The position numbers and the translations under genes are program-made. The notes under the pieces are model-generated. The model saw only the letters and a list, made by a program, of their open reading frames with translations. It was not told the DNA's origin and searched no databases. From Thioalkalivibrio sp. ALE14 (lineage in GTDB: Bacteria > Pseudomonadota > Gammaproteobacteria > Ectothiorhodospirales > Ectothiorhodospiraceae), in NCBI RefSeq assembly GCF_000376845.1, contig NZ_AQXY01000025.1, positions 62,001 to 126,000 on the forward strand: a stretch of DNA of 64,000 nucleotides, written 5' to 3'. Positions 33,704 through 49,158 of this stretch are shown one piece after another (position 1 is the first letter of the stretch; each line of letters begins with the position of its first letter).

Positions 33704-35125
33704 ATGGCCGCCAAGAAGTACTCCGCGGGTGTCAAGGATTACCGCGAAACATACTGGATGCCGGAATACATGCCGCTGGATACCGATCTGCTGGCATGTT
33801 TCAAGATCACCCCGCAGCCGGGCATCGACCGCGAAGAAGCGGCAGCCGCTGTGGCGGCCGAGTCGTCCACCGGTACCTGGACCACGGTGTGGACCGACCT
33901 CCTGACCGACATGGATTACTACAAGGGTCGGGCGTACATGATCGAGGACGTCCCGGGTGACGACGAGTCCTTCTACGCGTTCATCGCCTACCCGATCGAC
34001 CTGTTCGAAGAAGGCTCGATGGTGAACGTGTTCACCTCGCTGGTCGGCAACGTGTTCGGCTTCAAGGCCATCCGTGCCCTGCGTCTGGAAGACGTGCGCT
34101 TCCCGATTGCCTACGTGAAGACCTGCGGTGGTCCGCCCTCCGGTATCCAGGTCGAGCGCGACAAGCTGAACAAGTATGGCCGCCCGATGCTGGGTTGCAC
34201 CATCAAGCCGAAGCTGGGTCTGTCCGCGAAGAACTACGGCCGTGCCGTGTACGAGTGCCTGCGTGGCGGTCTCGACTTCACCAAGGACGACGAGAACATC
34301 AACTCGCAGCCGTTCATGCGCTGGCGTGACCGCTTCGAGTTCGTGCAGGAAGCGACCGAAAAGGCCGAAGCCGAAACCGGCGAGCGCAAGGGTCACTACC
34401 TGAACGTCACCGCGCCGACCCCGGAAGAGATGTACAAGCGTGCCGAGTTCGCCAAGGAGATTGGCGCGCCGATCATCATGCACGACTACATCACCGGCGG
34501 TTTCTGCGCCAACACGGGTCTGGCCAACTGGTGCCGTGACAACGGCGTGCTGCTGCACATCCACCGTGCCATGCACGCGGTGCTCGACCGCCATCCGAAG
34601 CACGGGATCCACTTCCGCGTGCTGGCCAAGATCCTGCGTCTGTCCGGTGGTGACCACCTCCACACCGGTACCGTGGTCGGCAAGCTGGAAGGCGACCGCG
34701 CCGCGACCCTGGGCTGGATCGACCTGCTGCGCGAATCCTTCGTGCCGGAAGACCGCTCGCGCGGCATCTTCTTCGATCAGGACTGGGGCTCCATGCCGGG
34801 CGTGTTCGCCGTGGCCTCCGGTGGTATCCACGTCTGGCACATGCCGGCCCTGGTTTCCATCTTCGGCGACGACTCCGTGCTGCAGTTCGGCGGCGGTACG
34901 CTGGGCCACCCGTGGGGCAACGCCCCGGGCGCGGCGGCCAACCGTGTCGCGCTGGAAGCCTGTGTGCAGGCGCGCAACGAAGGTCGCGAGATCGAAAAGG
35001 AAGGCAAGGAGATCCTCACCCAGGCCGCCCAGCACAGCCCCGAGCTGAAGGTGGCGATGGAGACCTGGAAGGAGATCAAGTTCGAGTTCGATACCGTCGA
35101 CAAGCTGGACACCCAGCACAAGTGA
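33704..35125 (+). CDS. cbbL: RubisCO large subunit, form IA, carboxysomal type
   Basis: The 473-residue protein has all active-site landmarks: GCTIKPKLG (K168, K170), the carbamylated lysine region [11 protein letters not shown] (K194, D196, E197), [16 protein letters not shown] and the loop-6 region. It fixes CO2 on ribulose bisphosphate. Sequence and neighbouring cso genes identify it as the carboxysome-packaged form IA enzyme. It is the first gene of the locus, followed by cbbS. Confidence 0.98.
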
Positions 35126-35193
35126 TCGCCCGAGCGCGGGCGGCCTGAACGGTCGCTCGCGCCCTGACAGAACAAGAGCACAGGATTACCGAC

Positions 35194-35526
35194 ATGACTG
35201 ATATCCAGAACTTCAAGCAGTCGCAGAAGTACGAGACCTTCTCCTACCTCCCGGAGATGAACGCCGACCAGGTGCGCAAGCAGATCGAATACTGCCTCGC
35301 CCAGGGCTGGAACCCGGCGATCGAGTACAGCGAGAAGGAAAACGCCATGGCCCACTACTGGTACATGTGGAAGCTGCCGTTCTTCGGCGAGCAGTCCGTG
35401 GAAGCCGTCCTTCAGGAAGTCGAAGAATGCCGCCGTGCCAATCCGGGCATGATGGTGCGCTTCATTGCCTACGATAACTACGCCCAGAGCCAGGGCATGG
35501 CCTTCGTGGTCGACCGCGGTCGCTAA
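35194..35526 (+). CDS. cbbS: RubisCO small subunit, carboxysomal type
   Basis: The 110-residue protein starts [22 protein letters not shown] and contains [29 protein letters not shown]. It caps the L8S8 enzyme and helps form the surface that CsoS2 binds. A strong hairpin at 35540-35567 lies 13 bases after its stop codon. Confidence 0.97.
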
Positions 35527-35617: not shown

Positions 35618-38600
35618 ATGAGTAATCCGACATCTGCGTCTGAAGGTCTCTCGGGGCGTGAACGTGCCCTGGAACGGCGCAAGGCCATGTCTCGCAATGG
35701 CAAGGCTGCCGTGAAGTCGACCGGCCAAAACAAGGGGAACAGCCGTTCCGCCGCGGCCGCGCAACAGGCGCGCCAGGCGAAAGCGGAACCCGCCCCGGCA
35801 ACCCAGGCGCGGGAGCCGGAGACGCACTCCAGTGAATCGACGTCGCCGGTCTCTGTCGAGACCCGCGACACCACCCCCGAGCGGCGTCCGGAACCGGGCG
35901 CGCACGCGGGTGCTTCCAATGGCCGCCAGGCGGCCCTCGAGCGCCGCCAGCAGATGGCGCGCCAGGGCAAGAAGGCGGTGGGCCGTACCAATACACGAGC
36001 GCAGGTCTCCGGCGGCATGGCCCGCGCCGGCGCCGATCGCTCGCGCCAGCTCGACGCGCTGGCCCAGTCGCAGAACGTCGAGGTCGACTGCTCGAACATG
36101 AGCGGTCGCGAGATCTGCCGCCTGCGGCGTCAGGCCCTGTCCACCGACGGGAAGAAGGCCATGGCGCCCGAGCCCCGTCGCGAAGATCGCCTCAAGGGGA
36201 CCGAGCCGGTCGCGGCCGGCCGCGAGGAAGCGAAGAAGGATTGTGGCTGTGGCTGCAAGGGCGACAAGTCCGGGCGTGACGATGCCGTCGATACGGCCCC
36301 GACCCAGGGGGATCCGGTGGTCGAGAGCGGCCTGGACCAGCTGTGTGACAAGGTCGAGTCCGGGGGCGAGGCCGCCGGTCCGCACCCGATGATCTCCGAG
36401 GTTCGGGCGATCTGCATGGCCCGCCGCGATGCGATGGCGCAGAACGGCAAGCAGGCCCTGCGCCGCCGCTTCAAGAGCGGGCAGGCCCGCGGCACGCTGC
36501 CGCAGGAAGGCGCCTGGAAGGCCGCCAAGCGCAAGGGCATGTCCACGCGCGAAGTGGCCCGCCAGCGGCGCGAAGAGCTTTGCAAGCTGGGCCGTGGCTC
36601 CTCCGAGCCGGGCCGTCCCTGCGGTCGTCCGCGTCCGGCCGAGGGCGATGCACCGCCCAAGGTCGAGGAAGGCACCACGCTGGCGGGCAGCCATGTCAGT
36701 GGCACGCAGGTAGAACGCACCTCCAGCGTGACCGGCACCGAGGCGGGCAGCTGCTCGTCCATTACCGGAACCGAATATCTGGGCGCCGAGCATTACGATC
36801 GGTACTGCGGCGTTCGCCCCGCGGGCAACCCGCCCAAGGTGGGTGCCTCGCACACTGCGCACGGCCAGTCCGTCAGCGGAACCGAAGTGGGCCGTTCGTC
36901 CCGCGTGACCGGTGACGAACGCGGGTCCTGCGAGACGATCACTGGCACGGAATACCTGAGTACCGAACAGTACGAAGGCTTCTGCGGCACCCGTCCGCAG
37001 GCGGGTCCGGCACGCACCAGCGTCATGGTGACGCGGCAGGGCGAAGGGGTCTCGGGCACCTCGGTCGGGCGCAGCCCGAAGGTGACCGGCGACGAATCGG
37101 GCTCCTGCCGTGACGTGACGGGTACCGAGTACCTGAACACGGCCACCAGCGAGGTCCCCTGCAACTCGGGAAAGTCCAACGGAGCGCCGATGAAGGTCGG
37201 CGTGATGCACACGCTTCGCGGTCGTGAACTGACCGGTACCGAAGTCGGGCGCTCCGTCCATGTCACCGGTGACGAGTACGGCAGCTGCAAGCCGGTCACC
37301 GGGACCGAATATCTCGGCACGGAACAGTTCCAGGGCTTTTGCGGTACCCGCCCGGAGCCGACGCCGGCCAAGGTCCAGGAATCCCATACGATGGAAGACC
37401 AGACCATTACGGGCGTGGCCGTGGGCCGCAGCTCGAAGGTGACCGGCAACGAGAGCGGTTCCTGCAAGTCGCTGACCGGGACCCCGTACTACAACAAGTC
37501 GGACTTCGGCGATCTGTGTGAGCAGCCCGCCGCCGGCGGCGTGCCCAAGGTCGGGGTGATGCACACCCTGCGTGGCCGGGAAGTTTCGGGGACCCAGGTG
37601 GATCATTCCATCCACGTCACCGGCGACGAGTACGGCGGCTGCAAGCCGATTACCGGAACCGAATACGCCGGTTCCGAGCACTACGACGCGTTCTGCGGTG
37701 GCCAGCGCCCGGAAGCGGCGCCCGAGAAGGTCACCGTGGGCCGCACCTGGAACCACCAGTCCGTCTCCGGTACGGCAGTCGGCCGGTCGACCCGGGTGAC
37801 GGGTGACGAGTACGGCGCCTGCAAACCGGTTAGCGGCACCGCCTACATCGGCCCGGATCAGTACGATCAGTTCTGCGAAACGCAGGATTCCCGGGTGGCG
37901 GAGACCCGCGTGGCCGAGCGCCATTCGACACCGGGCCATGCGATCTCCGGTAGCCAGCCGGGCTACGACGAGCGTGTGACTGGTACCGAACGAGGTGCCT
38001 GTCAGGACGTCTCCGGTGCCCCGTATGTCGGCGCGAACGAGTTCGCCCAGTCCTGCGCCAGTGCCGCCAGTAACCTTCATCCGCGTCTGCGGCCGGAAGG
38101 GATGCAGGCCGCCCCGGCTCAGGTGGCGCCGCCGGCCCCGGAGCGCCCGATGCCGAACGCTGGATTCAGCGTGGCGACGCCGGCGCGGTCGGCGGCTGAA
38201 CGCCGCGAACGCGTCACCGGGACCGCCTATGGCACGAGTGGCCGGCTGACGGGTTCGATCAACAAGGCGATGGGCCTGGTCTCCGGTACCGAGGAGTTCC
38301 GCTACAACGGCGGTCAGCAGCAGGTCGCTGCCGCTCCGGTCGACGAAAGCCAGAAGGTCGGCGCGGACCGCGTGACGGTCAATGGCAGCAGCAATGGCAT
38401 TTCCATTACCGGCGACGACTGGGGACGTGGGGACCGGGTGACCGGTACCGAAGGGATGTCCACCCGGCGCAATGCGACGCAGAAGGGGAATCCGCGTGGC
38501 GAAGGCCGTAGCGCCTATGTGAACCGCGAACTCGAGCGCAAGGATGTGCCCCCGAGCCGAATCACGGGTTCCTCCGGGAACAGCGACGCCGGTTCTCTGG

Positions 38601-38629
38601 TTACGCTGTCCGGCGGGGCGCGCGGCTAA
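35618..38629 (+). CDS. csoS2: Carboxysome assembly scaffold CsoS2
   Basis: The 1003-residue, largely disordered protein has three parts. The N-terminal part has RubisCO-binding repeats at about residues 19-31, 108-120, 169-181 and 268-280 (for example ERRKAMSRNGKAAV). The middle has about seven M repeats of the type VSGTEVGRSSRVTGDE...TGTEYL between residues ~358 and 750. The C-terminal part has further VTGT/ITG repeats and the shell-anchoring end ITGSSGNSDAGSLVTLSGG. It links RubisCO to the shell. Halothiobacillus CsoS2 has six M repeats, so seven is slightly more. A candidate frameshift site lies at 37168-37203. Confidence 0.96.
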   Translation: MSNPTSASEGLSGRERALERRKAMSRNGKAAVKSTGQNKGNSRSAAAAQQARQAKAEPAPATQAREPETHSSESTSPVSVETRDTTPERRPEPGAHAGASNGRQAALERRQQMARQGKKAVGRTNTRAQVSGGMARAGADRSRQLDALAQSQNVEVDCSNMSGREICRLRRQALSTDGKKAMAPEPRREDRLKGTEPVAAGREEAKKDCGCGCKGDKSGRDDAVDTAPTQGDPVVESGLDQLCDKVESGGEAAGPHPMISEVRAICMARRDAMAQNGKQALRRRFKSGQARGTLPQEGAWKAAKRKGMSTREVARQRREELCKLGRGSSEPGRPCGRPRPAEGDAPPKVEEGTTLAGSHVSGTQVERTSSVTGTEAGSCSSITGTEYLGAEHYDRYCGVRPAGNPPKVGASHTAHGQSVSGTEVGRSSRVTGDERGSCETITGTEYLSTEQYEGFCGTRPQAGPARTSVMVTRQGEGVSGTSVGRSPKVTGDESGSCRDVTGTEYLNTATSEVPCNSGKSNGAPMKVGVMHTLRGRELTGTEVGRSVHVTGDEYGSCKPVTGTEYLGTEQFQGFCGTRPEPTPAKVQESHTMEDQTITGVAVGRSSKVTGNESGSCKSLTGTPYYNKSDFGDLCEQPAAGGVPKVGVMHTLRGREVSGTQVDHSIHVTGDEYGGCKPITGTEYAGSEHYDAFCGGQRPEAAPEKVTVGRTWNHQSVSGTAVGRSTRVTGDEYGACKPVSGTAYIGPDQYDQFCETQDSRVAETRVAERHSTPGHAISGSQPGYDERVTGTERGACQDVSGAPYVGANEFAQSCASAASNLHPRLRPEGMQAAPAQVAPPAPERPMPNAGFSVATPARSAAERRERVTGTAYGTSGRLTGSINKAMGLVSGTEEFRYNGGQQQVAAAPVDESQKVGADRVTVNGSSNGISITGDDWGRGDRVTGTEGMSTRRNATQKGNPRGEGRSAYVNRELERKDVPPSRITGSSGNSDAGSLVTLSGGARG
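37168..37203 (+). promoter_or_regulatory. Candidate programmed -1 frameshift element in csoS2
   Basis: G GGA AAG (37168-37174) is a heptamer of X-XXY-YYZ form in the correct frame. A nine-base spacer is followed by a stem GCGCCGA/TCGGCGT (37184-37190 with 37197-37203). A -1 slip adds 17 codons and reaches TGA at 37225-37227, giving a product of about 536 residues ending after the third M repeat. Frameshifting of csoS2 is known in Halothiobacillus; whether this is the homologous site was not checked. Confidence 0.55.
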
Positions 38630-38653: not shown

Positions 38654-40207
38654 ATGGTGCGAGGTCGCCGCAAGAACAGTCCCCTGGGCTCGCGTTTCGC
38701 GAAGTCCCGGGCCGTGGCTGCGCGCGCGGCGAGCCCGGCGCCGTCGGCGCCCGTGTCCGCGGTCCCGCCGGCCAAGAGTGGCGCTTCCGATTCGGACCTG
38801 ACGCGGGAGCTGCAACCCGGGCATCCGCTGGCCGATGTCGCGATGAACGAGCGCCTGCATGCCTTCGAACGCGGGTTCCGGGAGCGTTTCGCGCAGCTGG
38901 TGCCGGTGTTGAAGGAAGTGCACGCGCTGCAGCACGAACGCGACTTCGAGGAGCGGGCGCAGGCGATCGTCCAGGAGCAACTGGGGTACCGGCTGCCGGA
39001 GAAGGCCCTCGAGGACGCCTGGATCAATGATCTGGACACGCGCGAGCTGTACCTGCACGGGACGTTCGAGCTGTTCGATCAGGTGGTCAACGAGTACTGG
39101 GCGGGGCGTGATGACCTGGTGGCGGAAGCGGAAAGCGCGATCGCGTATTTCCTCGACTGTGACTTCCACGAGGTGGACATCTCGCCCTGCTCGGACGGGC
39201 GGCTGCTTGGGTTGCGACGTTTCATCCTGCGGCTGCCGGACCTCGCGGTCCGGGTGAAGAGCTACGCGGGTGCGCAGTTCGACATCGAGGAGGACGTGCG
39301 CCACTGGACCAAGCGGGAGCTGCTGCGGTTCCGCGAGGGTCGGCCGACGACGGCCGATGTCCCGAGCCGCTATCTGAAGATCGCGGCGTACCACTACAGC
39401 GGCGCGGATCCGCTGCACCAGGGCTGCGCGGCACACGGCAACAACGAACGCGACGCGGCGGACGGTGCCTTGCACCAGTTGCGCGCGTTCCGGCAGGCGA
39501 TCGAGAACACCTACTGCTGTGGGGCCTCGGTCGACACGCTGCTGATCGGCGTGGATACGGACACGGATGCGGTGAAGATCCACATCCCGGACGCCGATAC
39601 GCGGATGAGCCTGTACCGCTTCGTGGACAGCGCGGAGTTGTATCGCGCGACGCAGGGCCTGGACGAACAGGCCGCGTCGTTGCGGGTATACCAGGCGATC
39701 CAGGACGCCATCCACCAGCAGGGCTGGGGACGCGGCAACGGGGCGCCGCACGAAGGGATGCTGCGACTGATCTCGCGGCTGCTGCTGAACAATATTTCGC
39801 AGCTGGATTACGTGGCGCGCTACCACGGGGGGCATTACGCCGATGTGGGCCACCGGGAGCGCGTGATTATCGTGGGTCAGGAGATCGAGGAGATGCAGGT
39901 GCGCAACTTCGCGTACTTCGCGCACCTCGAGACGATGGAAGAGGGCTCCGAAGGGACGGACGTCGGGGTCAACAAGATTTTTCGGAAGTTGAATGTCGAG
40001 CGCGGCCTGCCGGTGCCGGTGGTGATCCATTACCGCTATGACCGCAAGGTGCCGGGATCGCGGGAACGGGTGGAGGCGCGTTGCCGCCGCATCCGCGACC
40101 AGATCATGGATCGCTATCGCGACCTGGCAGAGAAGGGCCTGATCGGTTGCCACATGGTGATCCGCGACAAGCGTAGCGGAAGCCGTCTGGAACCGCTGGC
40201 CGCCTGA
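38654..40207 (+). CDS. csoS3: Carboxysomal carbonic anhydrase CsoSCA (CsoS3)
   Basis: The 517-residue protein shows the zinc ligands and active-site residues of the epsilon/beta-like carbonic anhydrase: C179-S-D181-G-R183 and H247...C258 in YHYSGADPLHQGC, with spacing close to that of the Halothiobacillus enzyme (C173, H242, C253). The N-terminal ~45 residues are basic and Ala/Ser/Pro-rich, as expected for the disordered tail that binds RubisCO. It converts bicarbonate to CO2 inside the shell. Confidence 0.97.
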   Translation: MVRGRRKNSPLGSRFAKSRAVAARAASPAPSAPVSAVPPAKSGASDSDLTRELQPGHPLADVAMNERLHAFERGFRERFAQLVPVLKEVHALQHERDFEERAQAIVQEQLGYRLPEKALEDAWINDLDTRELYLHGTFELFDQVVNEYWAGRDDLVAEAESAIAYFLDCDFHEVDISPCSDGRLLGLRRFILRLPDLAVRVKSYAGAQFDIEEDVRHWTKRELLRFREGRPTTADVPSRYLKIAAYHYSGADPLHQGCAAHGNNERDAADGALHQLRAFRQAIENTYCCGASVDTLLIGVDTDTDAVKIHIPDADTRMSLYRFVDSAELYRATQGLDEQAASLRVYQAIQDAIHQQGWGRGNGAPHEGMLRLISRLLLNNISQLDYVARYHGGHYADVGHRERVIIVGQEIEEMQVRNFAYFAHLETMEEGSEGTDVGVNKIFRKLNVERGLPVPVVIHYRYDRKVPGSRERVEARCRRIRDQIMDRYRDLAEKGLIGCHMVIRDKRSGSRLEPLAA

Positions 40208-40224
40208 CGCACACGGGAACGGGA

Positions 40225-40476
40225 ATGAAGATCTGCAAGGTTGAGAAGACGCTGGTTTCGACCAACCGCATCCGCGATCTGGGGCATCGGCCGTTGCTGG
40301 TGGTCCAGGAGAAGGCGGGTGGCCCGCGGACCGTCGCGGTGGACGCGGTTGGCTGCGTGCCCGGGGACTGGGTGATCGTGGTGGGCAGTTCGGCGGCGCG
40401 CGAAGCGGCCGGGGACAAGTCCTACCCCAGTGACGCGACGATCGTGGGGATCATCGATTACTGGGAGGAGCAGTAG
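40225..40476 (+). CDS. csoS4A: Carboxysome shell vertex protein CsoS4A
   Basis: This 83-residue protein starts MKICKVEKTLVSTNRI and ends GIIDYWEEQ, the small pentameric BMV (EutN/CcmL) fold. Pentamers close the vertices of the shell. It begins 17 bases after csoS3. The csoS4B start codon lies four bases after its stop. Confidence 0.96.
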   Translation: MKICKVEKTLVSTNRIRDLGHRPLLVVQEKAGGPRTVAVDAVGCVPGDWVIVVGSSAAREAAGDKSYPSDATIVGIIDYWEEQ

Positions 40477-40480
40477 CTCC

Positions 40481-40813
40481 ATGGAAATCATGCAGGTGCA
40501 GGACGAACTGGTGGTGACCCGTCGCGTCGACGGGCTGAAGACCATGTCGCTGCGCGTGCTGGTGGACCAGAAGGGGGCGCTGAACGTCGCCGTCGATACG
40601 GTCGGGGCCCATCCGGGTAACTGGGTGTTCACGATCAGTGGCTCGGCGGCACGGTACGCGCTCGACGACAACAGCATTCAGACCGATCTTACGATCGGCG
40701 GCATCATCGACCACTGGGACGATGGTGGAAAGAAGACGGAAGGGTCGAAGGACGAAGCAGGACGAGACCAGACCGATGCACAGCGCTCTGCTGGTTCCCG
40801 CAAGGCGGCGTGA
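40481..40813 (+). CDS. csoS4B: Carboxysome shell vertex protein CsoS4B with C-terminal extension
   Basis: The first ~81 residues (MEIMQVQDELVVTRRVDG to GGIIDHWDD) form a complete BMV pentamer domain. About 29 further residues follow (GGKKTEGSKDEAGRDQTDAQ and a basic end RSAGSRKAA). They are charged and probably disordered. CsoS4B is usually about 80 residues, so this tail is unusual. The start was placed at the ATG at 40481, just after the csoS4A stop. Confidence 0.94.
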   Translation: MEIMQVQDELVVTRRVDGLKTMSLRVLVDQKGALNVAVDTVGAHPGNWVFTISGSAARYALDDNSIQTDLTIGGIIDHWDDGGKKTEGSKDEAGRDQTDAQRSAGSRKAA

Positions 40814-40854: not shown

Positions 40855-41154
40855 ATGGCAACTGAACGTTTTGGTGTGGCGCTGGGCATGATCGAGACCC
40901 GTGGTCTGGTGCCGGCGATTGAAGCGGCCGACGCGATGACCAAGGCCTCCGAAGTGCGCCTGATCGGTCGTCAGTTCGTCGGTGGCGGCTACGTGACCGT
41001 GCTGGTCCGTGGCGAAACCGGTGCCGTGAACGCCGCTGTGCGTGCCGGTGCGGATTCCTGCGAGCGCGTGGGTGACGGCCTGGTGGCCGCGCACATCATC
41101 GCCCGCGTGCATTCCGAAGTGGAAAGCATCCTGCCCGAGCAGGTTGAAAAGTAA
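40855..41154 (+). CDS. csoS1C: Carboxysome shell hexamer protein CsoS1C
   Basis: The 99-residue BMC-domain protein shares residues 7-88 (FGVALGMIETRGLVPAIEAA, and so on) with the next two genes almost without change. Hexamers tile the shell facets, and charged pores admit bicarbonate. It ends ESILPEQVEK. Gene letter assigned by order only. Confidence 0.95.
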   Translation: MATERFGVALGMIETRGLVPAIEAADAMTKASEVRLIGRQFVGGGYVTVLVRGETGAVNAAVRAGADSCERVGDGLVAAHIIARVHSEVESILPEQVEK

Positions 41155-41185
41155 TTCATCTGTAACGCTTGATAGGAGTTGAGTA

Positions 41186-41479
41186 ATGGCTAGCGAAAAC
41201 TTTGGTGTGGCCCTCGGCATGATCGAGACCCGTGGTCTGGTGCCGGCGATCGAAGCCGCCGATGCGATGACCAAGGCCTCCGAGGTGCGCCTGATTGGTC
41301 GTCAGTTCGTGGGTGGCGGCTACGTGACCGTGCTGGTCCGTGGCGAAACCGGTGCCGTGAACGCCGCCGTGCGTGCCGGTGCGGATTCCTGCGAACGGGT
41401 GGGTGACGGCCTGGTGGCCGCGCACATCATTGCTCGCGTCCATTCCGAGGTGGAAAACATCCTCCCGGAAAAGCCGTAA
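41186..41479 (+). CDS. csoS1A: Carboxysome shell hexamer protein CsoS1A
   Basis: The 97-residue BMC protein is nearly identical to its two neighbours; it differs mainly at residues 4-6 (ENF) and the C-terminus ENILPEKP. It is followed by a hairpin with a T-tract at 41496-41529, which separates it from csoS1B. Confidence 0.95.
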   Translation: MASENFGVALGMIETRGLVPAIEAADAMTKASEVRLIGRQFVGGGYVTVLVRGETGAVNAAVRAGADSCERVGDGLVAAHIIARVHSEVENILPEKP

Positions 41480-41495
41480 CTCGCGGTAGTCGAAC

Positions 41496-41529
41496 GCCGT
41501 CGGGTCCCAACGGGCCCGGCGGCTTTTTT
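41496..41529 (+). terminator. Intrinsic terminator inside the carboxysome operon
   Basis: GCCGTCGGGTCCC and GGGCCCGGCGGC form a 12-bp stem (two wobble pairs) with a three-base loop, followed by TTTTTT. It lies between csoS1A and csoS1B, so it should reduce transcription of csoS1B and everything beyond it. Confidence 0.85.
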
Positions 41530-41545
41530 CAAGAAGAGGTAGATG

Positions 41546-41860
41546 ATGGCTAGCGAAATTTCTGGTGTGGCCCTCGGCATGATCGAGACCCGCGGTCTGG
41601 TCCCGGCGATCGAAGCCGCGGATGCGATGACCAAGGCCTCCGAAGTGCGCCTGATCGGTCGTCAGTTCGTGGGTGGCGGCTACGTGACCGTGCTGGTCCG
41701 TGGCGAAACCGGTGCCGTGAACGCCGCCGTGCGTGCCGGTGCGGATTCCTGCGAGCGTGTGGGTGACGGCCTGGTGGCCGCGCACATCATTGCGCGTGTG
41801 CATTCCGAAGTGGAAGGCATCCTGCCGACGGCCCCGACCGCCAGCGGTTCGGCCAGCTGA
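41546..41860 (+). CDS. csoS1B: Carboxysome shell hexamer protein CsoS1B
   Basis: The 104-residue BMC protein has the shared core and a longer C-terminus, EGILPTAPTASGSAS, like CsoS1B of other alpha-carboxysomes. The ATG at 41546 is preferred over the one at 41543 because of the distance to AAGAGG. It lies downstream of an intrinsic terminator, so it may be made at a lower level. Confidence 0.94.
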   Translation: MASEISGVALGMIETRGLVPAIEAADAMTKASEVRLIGRQFVGGGYVTVLVRGETGAVNAAVRAGADSCERVGDGLVAAHIIARVHSEVEGILPTAPTASGSAS

Positions 41861-42670: not shown

Positions 42671-43306
42671 GTGGGTTCGAGGGTAATCGCGGTAGTCAAT
42701 CAGAAGGGCGGTACCGGCAAGACCACCCTGACCATGAATCTCGCGGCGGGGCTCGCGCGGCGCGGGCGGACCCTGGTGGTGGACGCCGATCCGCAGGGCT
42801 CGGCGGCCCAGTGGGCCCGTATGGCCTCCGAGGATCGTCCCTTCCCGGCCTCGGTGTTCGCAGTGGCGGGGCCGCTGGATCGCGAGCTCAAGGCGCTGCG
42901 CAAGGACTACGAGCACATCGTGGTCGACTGCCCGCCCACCCTGGAGGGCGGAGCAGTCAACGGCGCGCTGGCCGCGTCCGACGAGGTCCTGATCCCCGTG
43001 TTGCCGTCCCCCGTCGATCTCTGGGGCAGTGTCCGCATGGGGCGCGGGCTGGAAGAGGCCCGGCTCAAGAATCCCAGCCTGCGTCCGTTCATCGTCGTCA
43101 ATCAGCTCGAGGTCCGCAGTGCGCTGTCGCGCGCGATGAAGCACGCACTGATGGAGATCGACATCCCCGCCCTGGAGCAGACACTGCGCCGGCGGGCTAT
43201 CTATCGGCGCTCGGCGCTCGAGGGCTGTTCCGTCTTTGATCTCGGCAAGCCCGGGGAGGCCGCGGCGGCGGAGATCGAAGCCATCATCGAGGAGGTGTCG
43301 CAATGA
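42671..43306 (+). CDS. mcdA: ParA-type positioning ATPase McdA
   Basis: The 211-residue protein has the deviant Walker A KGGTGKTT (K12, K17) and VVDADPQGSAAQW, the ParA/MinD signature. Its place next to a small, basic, disordered protein ending in tryptophan-containing IWPD (McdB) identifies it as alpha-type McdA. It spaces carboxysomes on the nucleoid for inheritance. It starts with GTG; AGGAGG precedes it. It overlaps mcdB by four bases. Confidence 0.92.
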   Translation: MGSRVIAVVNQKGGTGKTTLTMNLAAGLARRGRTLVVDADPQGSAAQWARMASEDRPFPASVFAVAGPLDRELKALRKDYEHIVVDCPPTLEGGAVNGALAASDEVLIPVLPSPVDLWGSVRMGRGLEEARLKNPSLRPFIVVNQLEVRSALSRAMKHALMEIDIPALEQTLRRRAIYRRSALEGCSVFDLGKPGEAAAAEIEAIIEEVSQ

Positions 43307-43695
43307 GCAATCTGCAAGACAAGCTGGCAGCCGGCGTGCGCAGCGCGCGCGAGGACCAGGACAAGGACCAGAGCCAGGACACGGCGGCCAAGCCCGACGC
43401 GCAGGCCGAGGCTCAGAAGGACACGAGCCAGGAGCCGGCGAGCAGTCAACCGCGGGCCGCGGCAAGCACCAAGGCCGCCGCGACCAAGAAGGCTGCGACG
43501 ACGACCCGCAAGGCGCCGGCGCGCAAGCGCACGACCACACGCAAGAAGCCGGCCGCCAGCCAAAAGGCCAGCACGACCGCGGCGTCCTCCCAGGCAAAGA
43601 AGACCTCGTCTGCGAAGAAGCCGGCGGCGAAGAAGTCGTCCAAGGCGGACAATACCGGGAACGAGCTGCATCCGGAACGGATCTGGCCCGACTGA
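43303..43695 (+). CDS. mcdB: Carboxysome distribution protein McdB (alpha type)
   Basis: The 130-residue protein is disordered: a Gln/Asp-rich N-terminal half, then a Lys/Ala/Thr-rich repeat-like region (TKAAATKKAATTTRKAPARK) and a C-terminal ELHPERIWPD. Alpha-McdB proteins are known to be disordered and to end in an invariant tryptophan region, as seen here. It links carboxysomes to McdA. Its start codon overlaps the mcdA stop (ATGA). Confidence 0.9.
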   Translation: MSNLQDKLAAGVRSAREDQDKDQSQDTAAKPDAQAEAQKDTSQEPASSQPRAAASTKAAATKKAATTTRKAPARKRTTTRKKPAASQKASTTAASSQAKKTSSAKKPAAKKSSKADNTGNELHPERIWPD

Positions 43696-46898: not shown

Positions 46899-47210
46899 GG
46901 AAACACTGATTAATGTACACACTCGCGTTGGCACCCCAGGTTTTCCGAGACAAGGCGCGTCGTGCAGCGGGTAGTGGATCTACCCGCCCGTTTTTGATGA
47001 CTTCGGGGCGCAACGCAGGATCGGGGAACCTGGGGTGCCAACCCCGCAAACGATTGAAAGCATGGGCTCGGCCGCCCGTTGTTATCAAAAACGGGCGCGC
47101 GCACGGCGTTGCGGCTCCCTTGTGCCGAATGACTGCACGGCAGTCACCGCGCCTTGTTCGCACGCAAAAGCGACTCGAGCGCGAGCGTGTACATTAATCA
47201 GCGTTTCCCT
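46897..47210. mobile_element. MITE-like element, copy 2
   Basis: The 314-bp element has the same 31-bp terminal inverted repeats as copy 1 (AGGGAAACACTGATTAATG; two mismatches between ends) and the same inner hairpins. It carries about 45 extra bases, including a perfect 14-bp inverted pair CGCCCGTTTTTGAT (46985-46998) and ATCAAAAACGGGCG (47084-47097). It fills nearly the whole gap between cbbO and cbbR. Its left end overlaps the cbbO stop codon. It carries no gene of its own; it may act as terminator or promoter. Confidence 0.82.
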
Positions 47211-47228
47211 GGGGAGCACGGTACTCGC

Positions 47229-48263
47229 ATGGCCAAGACGGGAGGCAGCTCGACACCACCGAAGGAGTCCAGCCTTCCACACGTGATGCTGAAATCCGAG
47301 CTGCCGGCGCATCTGATCCGGCACGCGACCCTGCGTCAGTTGCAGGTCTTCGAGGCGATCGTTCGCCTGGGCAGCTTCACCCGCGCGGCGGAGGAGCTCT
47401 ACCTCACCCAGCCGACCGTCTCCATCCAGATCAAGAAGCTCTCCGGCGCCCTCGGCCTCCCGCTGTTCGAGTACGTCGGGCGCAAGGCCTTCCCCACCGA
47501 GGTCGGGTTGCTGCTGTACGACACCTGCCGCGAGATGCTGGGGGCGCTGACCAACCTGGAGATGAAGCTGGCGGAGATGCACGGGCTGAAGCGCGGGCGC
47601 CTGCGCCTGGCGGTGATCACCACGGCGCAGTACTTCGCGCCGACCATCCTCGGGCAGTTCGCCAAGCGCTATCCGGATATCGAGCTGTCGCTGGAGGTCA
47701 GCAACTTCGACCGTGTGCTGCATCGCCTGGCCAACAACGACGATGACCTGTACATCATCGGGCACGTGCCGGAGCGGCTGACCGACATCGCGGTGTACCC
47801 GTTCGCGCCGAACCCGCTGGTAGTAATGGCCAGCCGGGATCACCCGCTGGCGGGGCAGCGCAACATTCCGATCGAGCGCCTGGAGCAGGAGACCTTCCTG
47901 ATGCGCGAGCCGGGCTCGGGCATCCGCGAGGCGACCCTGAAGCTGTTCCAGGAACACGGCATCAACCCGACCGTGCGCATGGAGCTCGGCTCGAACGAGG
48001 CGATCAAGCAGGCGGTCATCGGGGGGCTCGGGATCGCGGTGCTGTCGCTGCATACCCTCAGCGCCGAAGGCGCGGGTGGCCCGGTGGCCCTGCTGGACGT
48101 GGAGCACTTCCCGATCCACCGCCAGTGGCACATCGTCCATCCCAAACAGAAGGTGTTGTCGGTGGTCGCCCAGACCTTCCTCGACTTTGCCATCCAGGAC
48201 GAGGCGCGGGTGCGCGGGCAGGTCGAGGATCTGCTGGCGGCGTTCAAGGCGCAGGCGACGTGA
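47229..48263 (+). CDS. cbbR: LysR-type regulator, probably CbbR
   Basis: The 344-residue protein has a LysR helix-turn-helix (SFTRAAEELYLTQPTVSIQIKKL, residues ~49-71) and an effector-binding domain. Its place directly after the carboxysome operon and the typical CbbR start (HATLRQLQVFEAIVRLGSF) point to CbbR, the activator of Calvin cycle genes, though usually it is divergent from its targets. ATG 47286 is an alternative start. A MITE-like element precedes it, so its promoter may lie inside that element. Confidence 0.85.
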   Translation: MAKTGGSSTPPKESSLPHVMLKSELPAHLIRHATLRQLQVFEAIVRLGSFTRAAEELYLTQPTVSIQIKKLSGALGLPLFEYVGRKAFPTEVGLLLYDTCREMLGALTNLEMKLAEMHGLKRGRLRLAVITTAQYFAPTILGQFAKRYPDIELSLEVSNFDRVLHRLANNDDDLYIIGHVPERLTDIAVYPFAPNPLVVMASRDHPLAGQRNIPIERLEQETFLMREPGSGIREATLKLFQEHGINPTVRMELGSNEAIKQAVIGGLGIAVLSLHTLSAEGAGGPVALLDVEHFPIHRQWHIVHPKQKVLSVVAQTFLDFAIQDEARVRGQVEDLLAAFKAQAT

Positions 48264-48591
48264 GCCTGGGCCGGATGTGCCGTCATTGCGAGCGCCGCGA
48301 AGCGATCTCCGGGATGGATTGAAAGGATCGGGATCGCGATCCAACCCGGCATGACAGGCCGGAGGGGGTCCCTTACAATTCAGGTCGTAATCGGTACTGA
48401 AGCGCCGCGGAGGGCCTTTCGCCTGCAAGCAGGCTCCTACAGGTCTTTGTCCTTGTAGGAGCCTGCTTGCAGGCGAACTCCGATGGCTTCCTTCGATACG
48501 CCCGGCGGGTTTTTCCTGCCCGAGGAGGATTTGTGCGAACCAGGATTCATAATTTCGAGGGCCGGCGACGGCCGAACGCGGAGATCAGTCA
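48264..48591. other. Intergenic region with dispersed repeats
   Basis: The first part has a segment TCATTGCGAGCGCCGCGAAG (48285-48304) of a common dispersed repeat type. A palindrome follows at 48419-48476. The last ~100 bases hold no recognisable motif apart from GGAG before the next gene. No gene is supported. Confidence 0.55.
48419..48476. repeat. REP-like palindrome
   Basis: A perfect 23-bp inverted repeat starts TCGCCTGCAAGCAGG and ends with its complement, around a 12-base loop. The CTGCAAGCAGGCTCCTAC motif is the well-known form of REP sequences in several gammaproteobacteria. It may end the cbbR transcript. Confidence 0.85.
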
Positions 48592-49158
48592 GTGACCACG
48601 AGCAGCCGGCCGCGCATCAGCGGCACCCAGTTCATCAATGCCGACGAGTCGCCGCGCTCGCGCCTGAGCCTGAGCGCCTCGCATCGCGACCAGCATCACC
48701 CGGTGACCGGGACGGGCGGCGACCCGGCGTTCGGCGCCATCGATACCCCGCCGAACGAGAGCTGCGTGGTCTGCGCCCCGGCGACCCGCCGCCTGGCCGA
48801 GGAACTGTTCGAGGGCTGGAACGATGCCCTGCAGACCGGAGACGCGCGCAAGGTCGCCGAACGCTATGCCGAGGACGCCGTGCTGCTGCCGACCGTCTCC
48901 AACGTCCCGCGGACCACGCATGCCGAGATCCAGGACTACTTCGAGCACTTCCTCGAGAAGAAGCCCTTCGGGACGATCAACACTCGCAACGTGAAGCTCG
49001 GTTGCAACAAGCTGACCGACGCCGGCACCTACACCTTCCGCGTCACCGACGGTGGCGAGACGAAGGACGTCCCGGCGCGCTACACCTTCGTGTACGAAAA
49101 CCGCGACGGGGAGTGGAAGATCGTCCACCATCACTCGTCGATGATGCCGACCGACTGA
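48592..49158 (+). CDS. NTF2-like (SgcJ/EcaC or CaMKII-association-like) protein with a CsoS2-like N-terminal tail
   Basis: The 188-residue protein has a C-terminal NTF2-like domain (residues ~65-188; RRLAEELFEGWNDALQTGDA, RYAEDAVLLPT, ENRDGEWKIVHHHSS) of the SgcJ/EcaC type, which is often oligomeric. The first ~60 residues are polar and disordered-looking. They contain ISGTQ (9-13) and VTGTGG (38-43), both fitting the [IV][TS]G motif by which CsoS2 grips shell proteins, and a CVVC pair (58-61). The start is GTG 48592. The gene lies just downstream of cbbR. A carboxysome role is inferred, not known. Confidence 0.75.
   Translation: MTTSSRPRISGTQFINADESPRSRLSLSASHRDQHHPVTGTGGDPAFGAIDTPPNESCVVCAPATRRLAEELFEGWNDALQTGDARKVAERYAEDAVLLPTVSNVPRTTHAEIQDYFEHFLEKKPFGTINTRNVKLGCNKLTDAGTYTFRVTDGGETKDVPARYTFVYENRDGEWKIVHHHSSMMPTD

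Follow-up and report, generated by a model that had tools for sequence, protein, structure and literature searches.

The question raised by this locus is whether a small protein encoded next to cbbR, whose N-terminal tail carries two triplets resembling those of the carboxysome scaffold CsoS2, is taken into the alpha-carboxysome by means of this tail and, if so, as which enzyme. The gene was studied within a stretch of 64,000 nucleotides from Thioalkalivibrio sp. ALE14 (source genome of 3.02 Mb in 31 contigs), hereafter referred to as the window, and all coordinates refer to it (Table 1). An earlier note on this DNA had described, in an open reading frame beside cbbR, the tail segments ISGTQ (residues 9-13), VTGTGG (38-43) and CVVC (58-61) followed by an NTF2-like domain, and the position of the frame, the three segments and the domain were all found as described, with the cbbR frame (47154-48263) lying just upstream and holding its LysR domains within the part given in Table 1.

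Gene, enzyme family and surroundings

The alpha-carboxysome locus of the window is complete, and the gene studied here forms its end, after cbbR. Next to the genes listed in Table 1, the locus holds genes for a ferritin-like protein, a pterin-dehydratase-like protein, a ParA-type ATPase, cbbQ and a VWA protein, the latter standing where cbbO is expected. The ParA-type ATPase gene (42671-43306) is followed by a frame (43303-43695) for a Lys/Ala/Thr-rich protein of 130 residues, which has no Pfam match and a tryptophan near its end; we take the two (42671-43695) to resemble the McdA/McdB carboxysome-positioning pair. Between cbbR and the gene studied here a perfect inverted repeat was identified (24 nt with a 12-nt loop, 48418-48477), of whose 22-nt core the window was found to contain no other copy when as many as 3 mismatches were allowed. 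The same intergenic region holds a promoter-like site (48351-48379) that matches 10/12 consensus bases, with 0.1 such sites expected in shuffles, and the gene may hence possess a promoter of its own.

Table 1. Window coordinates of the tailed gene, of the parts of its product and of the neighbouring locus genes
Feature	Position	Strand	Evidence
Tailed iota-carbonic anhydrase gene (assigned by family)	48592..49158	+	ORF, GTG start, 188 aa; CaMKII_AD; fold match 3h51
N-terminal tail, residues 1-60, predicted disordered	48592..48771	+	block mean pLDDT 42-58, no helix/strand
Motif 1, ISGT, residues 9-12	48616..48627	+	lowest-entropy tail triplet over 27 representatives
Motif 2, VTGT, residues 38-41	48703..48714	+	[IV][ST]G in 39/45 tailed proteins
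Iota-carbonic anhydrase domain, residues 61-188	48772..49155	+	block mean pLDDT 83-98; Z 22.4 to 3h51 over 125 residues
HHHSS motif, residues 179-183	49126..49140	+	invariant in 45/45 tailed proteins
cbbL and cbbS, form I Rubisco	33704..35526	+	Pfam
csoS2, scaffold with triplets that the tail resembles	35618..38629	+	CsoS2_M
csoSCA, usual alpha-carboxysome carbonic anhydrase, full domain set	38654..40207	+	CsoSCA_N, _cat, _C
csoS4 (pentamer) genes, n=2	40225..40813	+	EutN_CcmL in both
csoS1 (hexamer) genes, n=3, proposed docking partners	40855..41860	+	BMC domain in 3/3
cbbR, LysR-type regulator	47226..48263	+	HTH_1, LysR_substrate; position beside Rubisco locus

The Pfam family CaMKII_AD (PF08332) was matched by residues 71-186 of the product (E 1.2e-21), and none of the CsoSCA families was among the Pfam matches of this frame. 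Among the matches listed, the closest named relative of the protein is that of Thioalkalivibrio sp. ALE31 (98% identity). The best solved relative is 3h51 from Xanthomonas, onto which the predicted model was aligned with an rmsd of 1.1 (Table 1), and which is presumably identical to the X. campestris protein described by Hirakawa et al. as an apparent iota-carbonic anhydrase (iota-CA). In the passages available, these authors give the activity of the X. campestris protein as unconfirmed (PMC8132391). The iota-CA chain 7c5x was matched by sequence (E 6e-7 to 4e-14), and the true iota-CA chain 7c5v gave a Z of 16.3, level with many other NTF2 folds, so that the family assignment is drawn from sequence and not from the fold alone. 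The catalytic-type residues T101, Y116, H181 and S183 are conserved: T101 and Y116 are present in 82/82 homologues, and HHSS in 81/82, including 36/37 tailless ones with the remaining one being gapped there. A C-terminal His-His-Ser-Ser motif and the residues necessary in iota-CA are described in passages of PMC8132391, and by position and motif the four residues presumably correspond to T106, Y124, H197 and S199 of the all2909 protein. Judged by this family membership, the product is an iota-class carbonic anhydrase with putative CO2 hydration activity; the earlier note, having thought of a small enzyme or binding protein, was right about the domain and missed the enzyme class.

Two cysteines, C61 (48772-48774) and C138 (49003-49005), were found to occur together: of 82 homologues 63 have both, 0 have one and 19 have neither, counts which ignore kinship, and all 45 tailed proteins have both as compared to 18 of 37 tailless ones, the other 19 having neither. 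A C61-C138 disulfide is likely from this pattern. According to passages of PMC11365436, carboxysome assembly is redox-sensitive. A periplasmic-type ancestry is proposed because a crude measure detected a hydrophobic, export-like stretch in 29/37 tailless relatives, and a periplasmic-type enzyme may thus have kept its disulfide inside the carboxysome.

The N-terminal tail and its likeness to CsoS2

Conservation of the tail was scored over 27 tailed representatives of less than 85% identity, with overlapping windows being merged, and the best-kept contiguous triplets were identified to be, in this order, ISG (residues 9-11), IDT (50-52) and VTG (38-40). The six motif columns showed a mean entropy of 0.56 bits as compared to 2.11 bits for the remaining tail columns, and 41 of 100,000 random six-column sets were as low. 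Motif 1, which occurs as ISGT, ITGT, VTGT or ISGS, was identified in 45/45 tailed proteins, a count which holds partly by construction because the assignment of a row as tailed was itself based on the motif pattern together with the alignment; the part of the result which is independent of this construction is that 44/44 of the best loci passed and 0/36 of the others. For L063, L065 and L066 the GTG of VTGT was taken as start, and their sequences therefore read MTGT. Motif 2 is degenerate in the 6/45 tailed proteins without the triplet counted in Table 1, which counts against docking. In proteins down to 51% identity the triplets are kept while their flanks vary, which is the outcome that the earlier note had named as a check on functional motifs.

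The worry that triplets as short as these occur by chance was likewise answered. Frames of at least 100 residues from the flanks of 80 loci, not flagged as iota-CA or CsoS2, were scanned for two [IV][ST]G triplets within the first 60 residues, with S or T coming directly after one of the two; of 1,162 such frames, called as longest ORFs in GC-rich DNA and hence partly spurious (49 iota-CA frames were flagged as compared to 82 found by tblastn), 7 matched, all of these were CsoS2 fragments cut at the end of a locus, and the remaining frames gave 0/1,155, which places the pair beyond chance.

Conservation of the tail extends further than the triplets. S26 (27/27; 48667-48669), R32 (26/27; 48685-48687) and I50-D51-T52 (48739-48747), the latter adjoining the domain, are conserved like the triplets themselves, a conservation for which shell triplets would give no account and which counts against the docking proposal.

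Two other functions of the tail were considered and rejected. An export signal was not supported, as the tail lacks a strongly hydrophobic stretch, with the largest 12-residue hydropathy mean in 45 tails being 1.62 versus at least 1.8 in the 29/37 tailless proteins mentioned above, by the same crude measure. CVVC as a metal- or redox-type CxxC was ruled out, since C58 is a cysteine in only 9/27 tailed representatives, with C61 being invariant (27/27), and the functional motif that the earlier note had seen here was hence not borne out. No helix was predicted, at low confidence, within residues 1-60; according to PMC12339742 the classical encapsulation peptide of bacterial microcompartments (BMC) is defined as a short helix on a linker.

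According to passages of the respective reports, the (V/I)(T/S)G triplets of CsoS2 are needed for shell binding and for growth in air (PMC11365436) and bind CsoS1A with a contact at His79 (PMC10484944), and CsoS2-C fused to foreign proteins carries these into shells (PMC10938918, PMC13370225). The tail triplets match this published pattern, and in this respect their description as CsoS2-like in the earlier note holds, but a wider likeness was not recovered: beyond the triplets, 89/200 motif-keeping shuffles scored as high as the tail profile against CsoS2 (6/200 for full shuffles), profiles of the CsoS2 end found no iota-CA tail significantly (best i-E 0.21), and the CsoS2-end block ranked 26 of 343 windows, its score being reached by 10/1,000 shuffles and owing mainly to motif 2. 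The idea of the tail being a piece copied from CsoS2, to which the shuffle, profile and block tests gave no support, was rejected, and the tail rather looks like motif convergence. A visible likeness of ISGT...LSLSASHR in the tail to ITGSSG...VTLSGGAR at the end of CsoS2 was noticed after the fact; a pattern built from both matches 34/45 tails and 26/31 CsoS2 ends, and its matches among 1,217 ORFs are confined to tails of iota-CA and ends of CsoS2, which is a lead only because the pattern was built from those same sets.

Occurrence, linkage and descent

Three surveys were carried out, covering the family (47 genomes), a class sample (369 genomes from the larger group) and a named genome collection, which was scanned by two peptide patterns with the best 80 of 106 relatives being considered; class-sample genomes partly recur in the named collection. 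Within the family, 19/47 genomes gave a match and 18/47 have a tailed copy (71-99% identity), all 18 of them possessing csoS2 and CsoSCA, and the tailless copy of the remaining genome (G011) goes along with neither. The class sample gave matches in 21/369 genomes; outside the family, csoS2 was found in 7/8 and CsoSCA in 5/8 tailed genomes, and none of the 11 others, one of which (G383) was not read at its start, has either. Among the best 80 of 106 relatives in the named collection, loci split cleanly into tailed (L041-L084) and tailless ones (L085-L120). In the genomes of this set, csoS2 was identified in 42/43 tailed ones (11 in the locus itself and 31/32 by genome search) and in 0/36 tailless ones (0/17 and 0/19, where the csoS2 model giving 0/19 matched 31 genomes in the other named-collection run). 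The exception, L068, is a metagenome-assembled genome (MAG) of 1.1 Mb, whose counterpart in the class sample, G104, has a completeness of 84%. CsoSCA was identified in 38/43 tailed genomes of the same best 80 of 106 (24/29 by search, 13 in the locus and L062 via G044), with the others being three Thiomicrospira genomes (L075, L076, L083), the MAG L082 and L068. Confinement of the tail to genomes with cso genes, which the earlier note had asked to be checked, was thus observed with this single exception. Of the csoS2-bearing family genomes, 19/37 have no copy, hence iota-CA is accessory and not essential to carboxysomes. No relative was found in the viral contigs searched.

Linkage alone does not account for the co-occurrence of tail and csoS2, since 22/44 tailed loci have no csoS2, csoSCA, csoS4 or csoS1 match in the flank examined (22/44 have one). 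In twelve of the 22 unlinked loci both flanks reach the full 10 kb, whereas contig ends shorten them in the others, and in the single-contig genomes G313 and G406 the iota-CA gene lies approximately 726 and 536 kb from csoS2; from these flanks and distances it follows that the tail is kept away from the cso locus as well. In the tree, tailed proteins fall into one part (47 rows, support 95/99, two tailless rows inside), whereby the tree is built from few columns with long branches and the placement of the tailless L101, a very long branch among the tailed rows, is unsure. The tail thus probably goes back to one origin followed by long retention. As the tailed proteins are essentially one lineage, genome counts are not independent of each other, and the retention of the triplets amid changing flanks is the stronger evidence. 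Thioalkalivibrio thiocyanoxidans ARh2 (L049, G039) possesses, downstream of its tailed gene, a tandem second iota-CA gene (L020; G039:C61:57816-58205), whose product is tailless, begins instead with a hydrophobic, signal-peptide-like stretch and, on a long branch, clusters with the tailed lineage, hence an export signal may have taken the place of the tail.

An iota-CA was reportedly identified in carboxysome enrichments by Wieschollek et al. 2024, and the corresponding mutant is said to have lost carbonic anhydrase activity and growth at low CO2. Citing this work (AEM 90:e01075-24), passages of PMC12628692, PMC12918739, PMC12646314 and PMC13159521 place an iota-type enzyme in carboxysomes of Thiomicrospira without CsoSCA. 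Since this carboxysomal iota-CA is already published, the cargo is not wholly new, and of the proposal of a new carboxysome cargo in the earlier note it is the tie of the tail to carboxysomes (the counts of 42/43 and 0/36 given above for the best 80 of 106) that stands. We found the gene in 8/9 Thiomicrospira genomes, the ninth being 83% complete, and 11/11 copies read start with an ITGT tail. Three of these genomes hold a pair of tailed iota-CA genes separated by about 1.9 kb (L152/L160, L153/L161, L151/L159) and L075 also has two copies; in the second copies ITGT is kept and a clear second triplet is absent. The passages citing the Thiomicrospira enzyme make no mention of docking by CsoS2-like triplets, and passages of the open-licence literature searched gave neither a docking tail nor the co-occurrence of iota-CA and CsoSCA. 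If the published proteins carry this tail, the location of tailed iota-CA is already known, and what remains is the docking route.

Docking, its alternatives and known systems

The window protein is very probably located in the carboxysome, and we regard it as reasonably probable that this iota-CA docks on the inner shell by its CsoS2-like [IV][TS]G motifs, usually beside CsoSCA. The suggested mechanism assumes an iota-class carbonic anhydrase which would work inside the alpha-carboxysome and whose disordered 60-residue tail would imitate CsoS2 by two short linear [IV][TS]G motifs. These triplets would attach to the inward-facing side of the CsoS1 shell, probably using the strand and the histidine that serve CsoS2; in the CsoS1 proteins of the window, residue 80 of 99 is a histidine (sequence context VAAHII), which we take to be the counterpart of His79 of CsoS1A. 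As the shell grows, docking would pull the enzyme inside, and there it would convert bicarbonate to CO2 for use by Rubisco, with CsoSCA also present in most hosts. Given its fold, the enzyme is likely oligomeric, and with two triplets per tail several weak contacts per particle would result. Encapsulation, shell binding, the binding site and the direction of catalysis are what we infer here; counting against the proposal, one metal-free iota-CA subgroup is described, in passages of PMC8132391, as showing no obvious bicarbonate dehydration, which is the direction a carboxysome needs. The small number and wide spacing of the triplets and the lack of a broader resemblance to CsoS2 in the shuffle test likewise count against it.

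A carboxysomal iota-CA whose tail binds Rubisco or another inner component, with the likeness to CsoS2 triplets being secondary, would accommodate the conservation of S26, R32 and IDT and a triplet spacing unlike that of CsoS2, and it has a precedent in CsoSCA, which according to passages of PMC12918739 and PMC12646314 binds Rubisco by a disordered N-terminal peptide. We consider this unlikely, as few tail columns are kept as well as those of the triplets, which also agree with the motif published for shell binding, and as a crude pattern written for the CsoS2 repeats that bind Rubisco matches 1/45 tails (L078). The location itself would be put in question if the enzyme were soluble in the cytosol outside the shell, with the tail serving another role in autotrophs that happen to own carboxysomes. 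The gene being away from shell genes in half of the loci would fit with this, but the nearly consistent presence of csoS2 in tailed genomes (best 80 of 106), the tail shared by relatives of the published carboxysomal enzyme and the view, given in passages of PMC10880623, that a free cytosolic carbonic anhydrase short-circuits bicarbonate accumulation render it quite improbable. Finally, a chance origin of the triplets, within a tail of low complexity, is disfavoured and was given hardly any credence: three-residue motifs are short and the profile comparison revealed no wider likeness to CsoS2, but the triplets are kept amid varying flanks at low identity and their pair is absent from the background frames.

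Docking of iota-CA on the shell by its triplets is hence the reading retained. A motif like that of the scaffold together with the near-restriction of the tail to carboxysome bacteria suggests a natural address tag for the loading of an enzyme. Only tentatively, and with somewhat more doubt than trust, this may be extended to a natural cargo-loading code, in which an exported periplasmic-type iota-CA would have exchanged its export signal for a CsoS2-mimicking [IV][TS]G tail sharing the CsoS1 sites, two unrelated carbonic anhydrases would be placed along separate routes, CsoSCA through its N-terminus and iota-CA through the triplets, and the exchange would be reversible, as the ARh2 paralogue may illustrate. 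If docking holds true, alpha-carboxysomes would possess a short natural address tag, based on motifs, for a cargo besides the scaffold, the entry of iota-CA into the carboxysome would be explained, and many sulfur oxidisers would have two unrelated carbonic anhydrases per organelle; the CsoS2 triplet code would become testable on a minimal two-triplet substrate, and a natural tag would be at hand for loading enzymes into engineered shells.

Compared with known systems, the window protein shares with tailless bacterial iota-CA relatives, including 3h51, the fold and the catalytic-type residues, whereas these have no tail and mostly possess the export-like stretch instead (29/37, crude measure). 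With CsoSCA it shares the locus and, following passages of PMC12918739 and PMC12646314, a disordered N-terminus reported to place the enzyme, the two belonging to unrelated Pfam families. The carboxysomal iota-CA of Thiomicrospira is of the same family, and the copies read share the tail pattern of the window protein; the hosts are reported, in the passages available, to be without CsoSCA, whereas the window locus has a complete one. CsoS2, as described in passages of PMC11365436 and PMC10484944, has in common with the iota-CA tail (V/I)(T/S)G triplets within a disordered chain, but CsoS2 carries many of these at a spacing of about 8 residues and the tail only two, at residues 9 and 38 and thus 29 apart, and unlike in CsoS2 the triplet-bearing chain of iota-CA ends in an enzyme domain.
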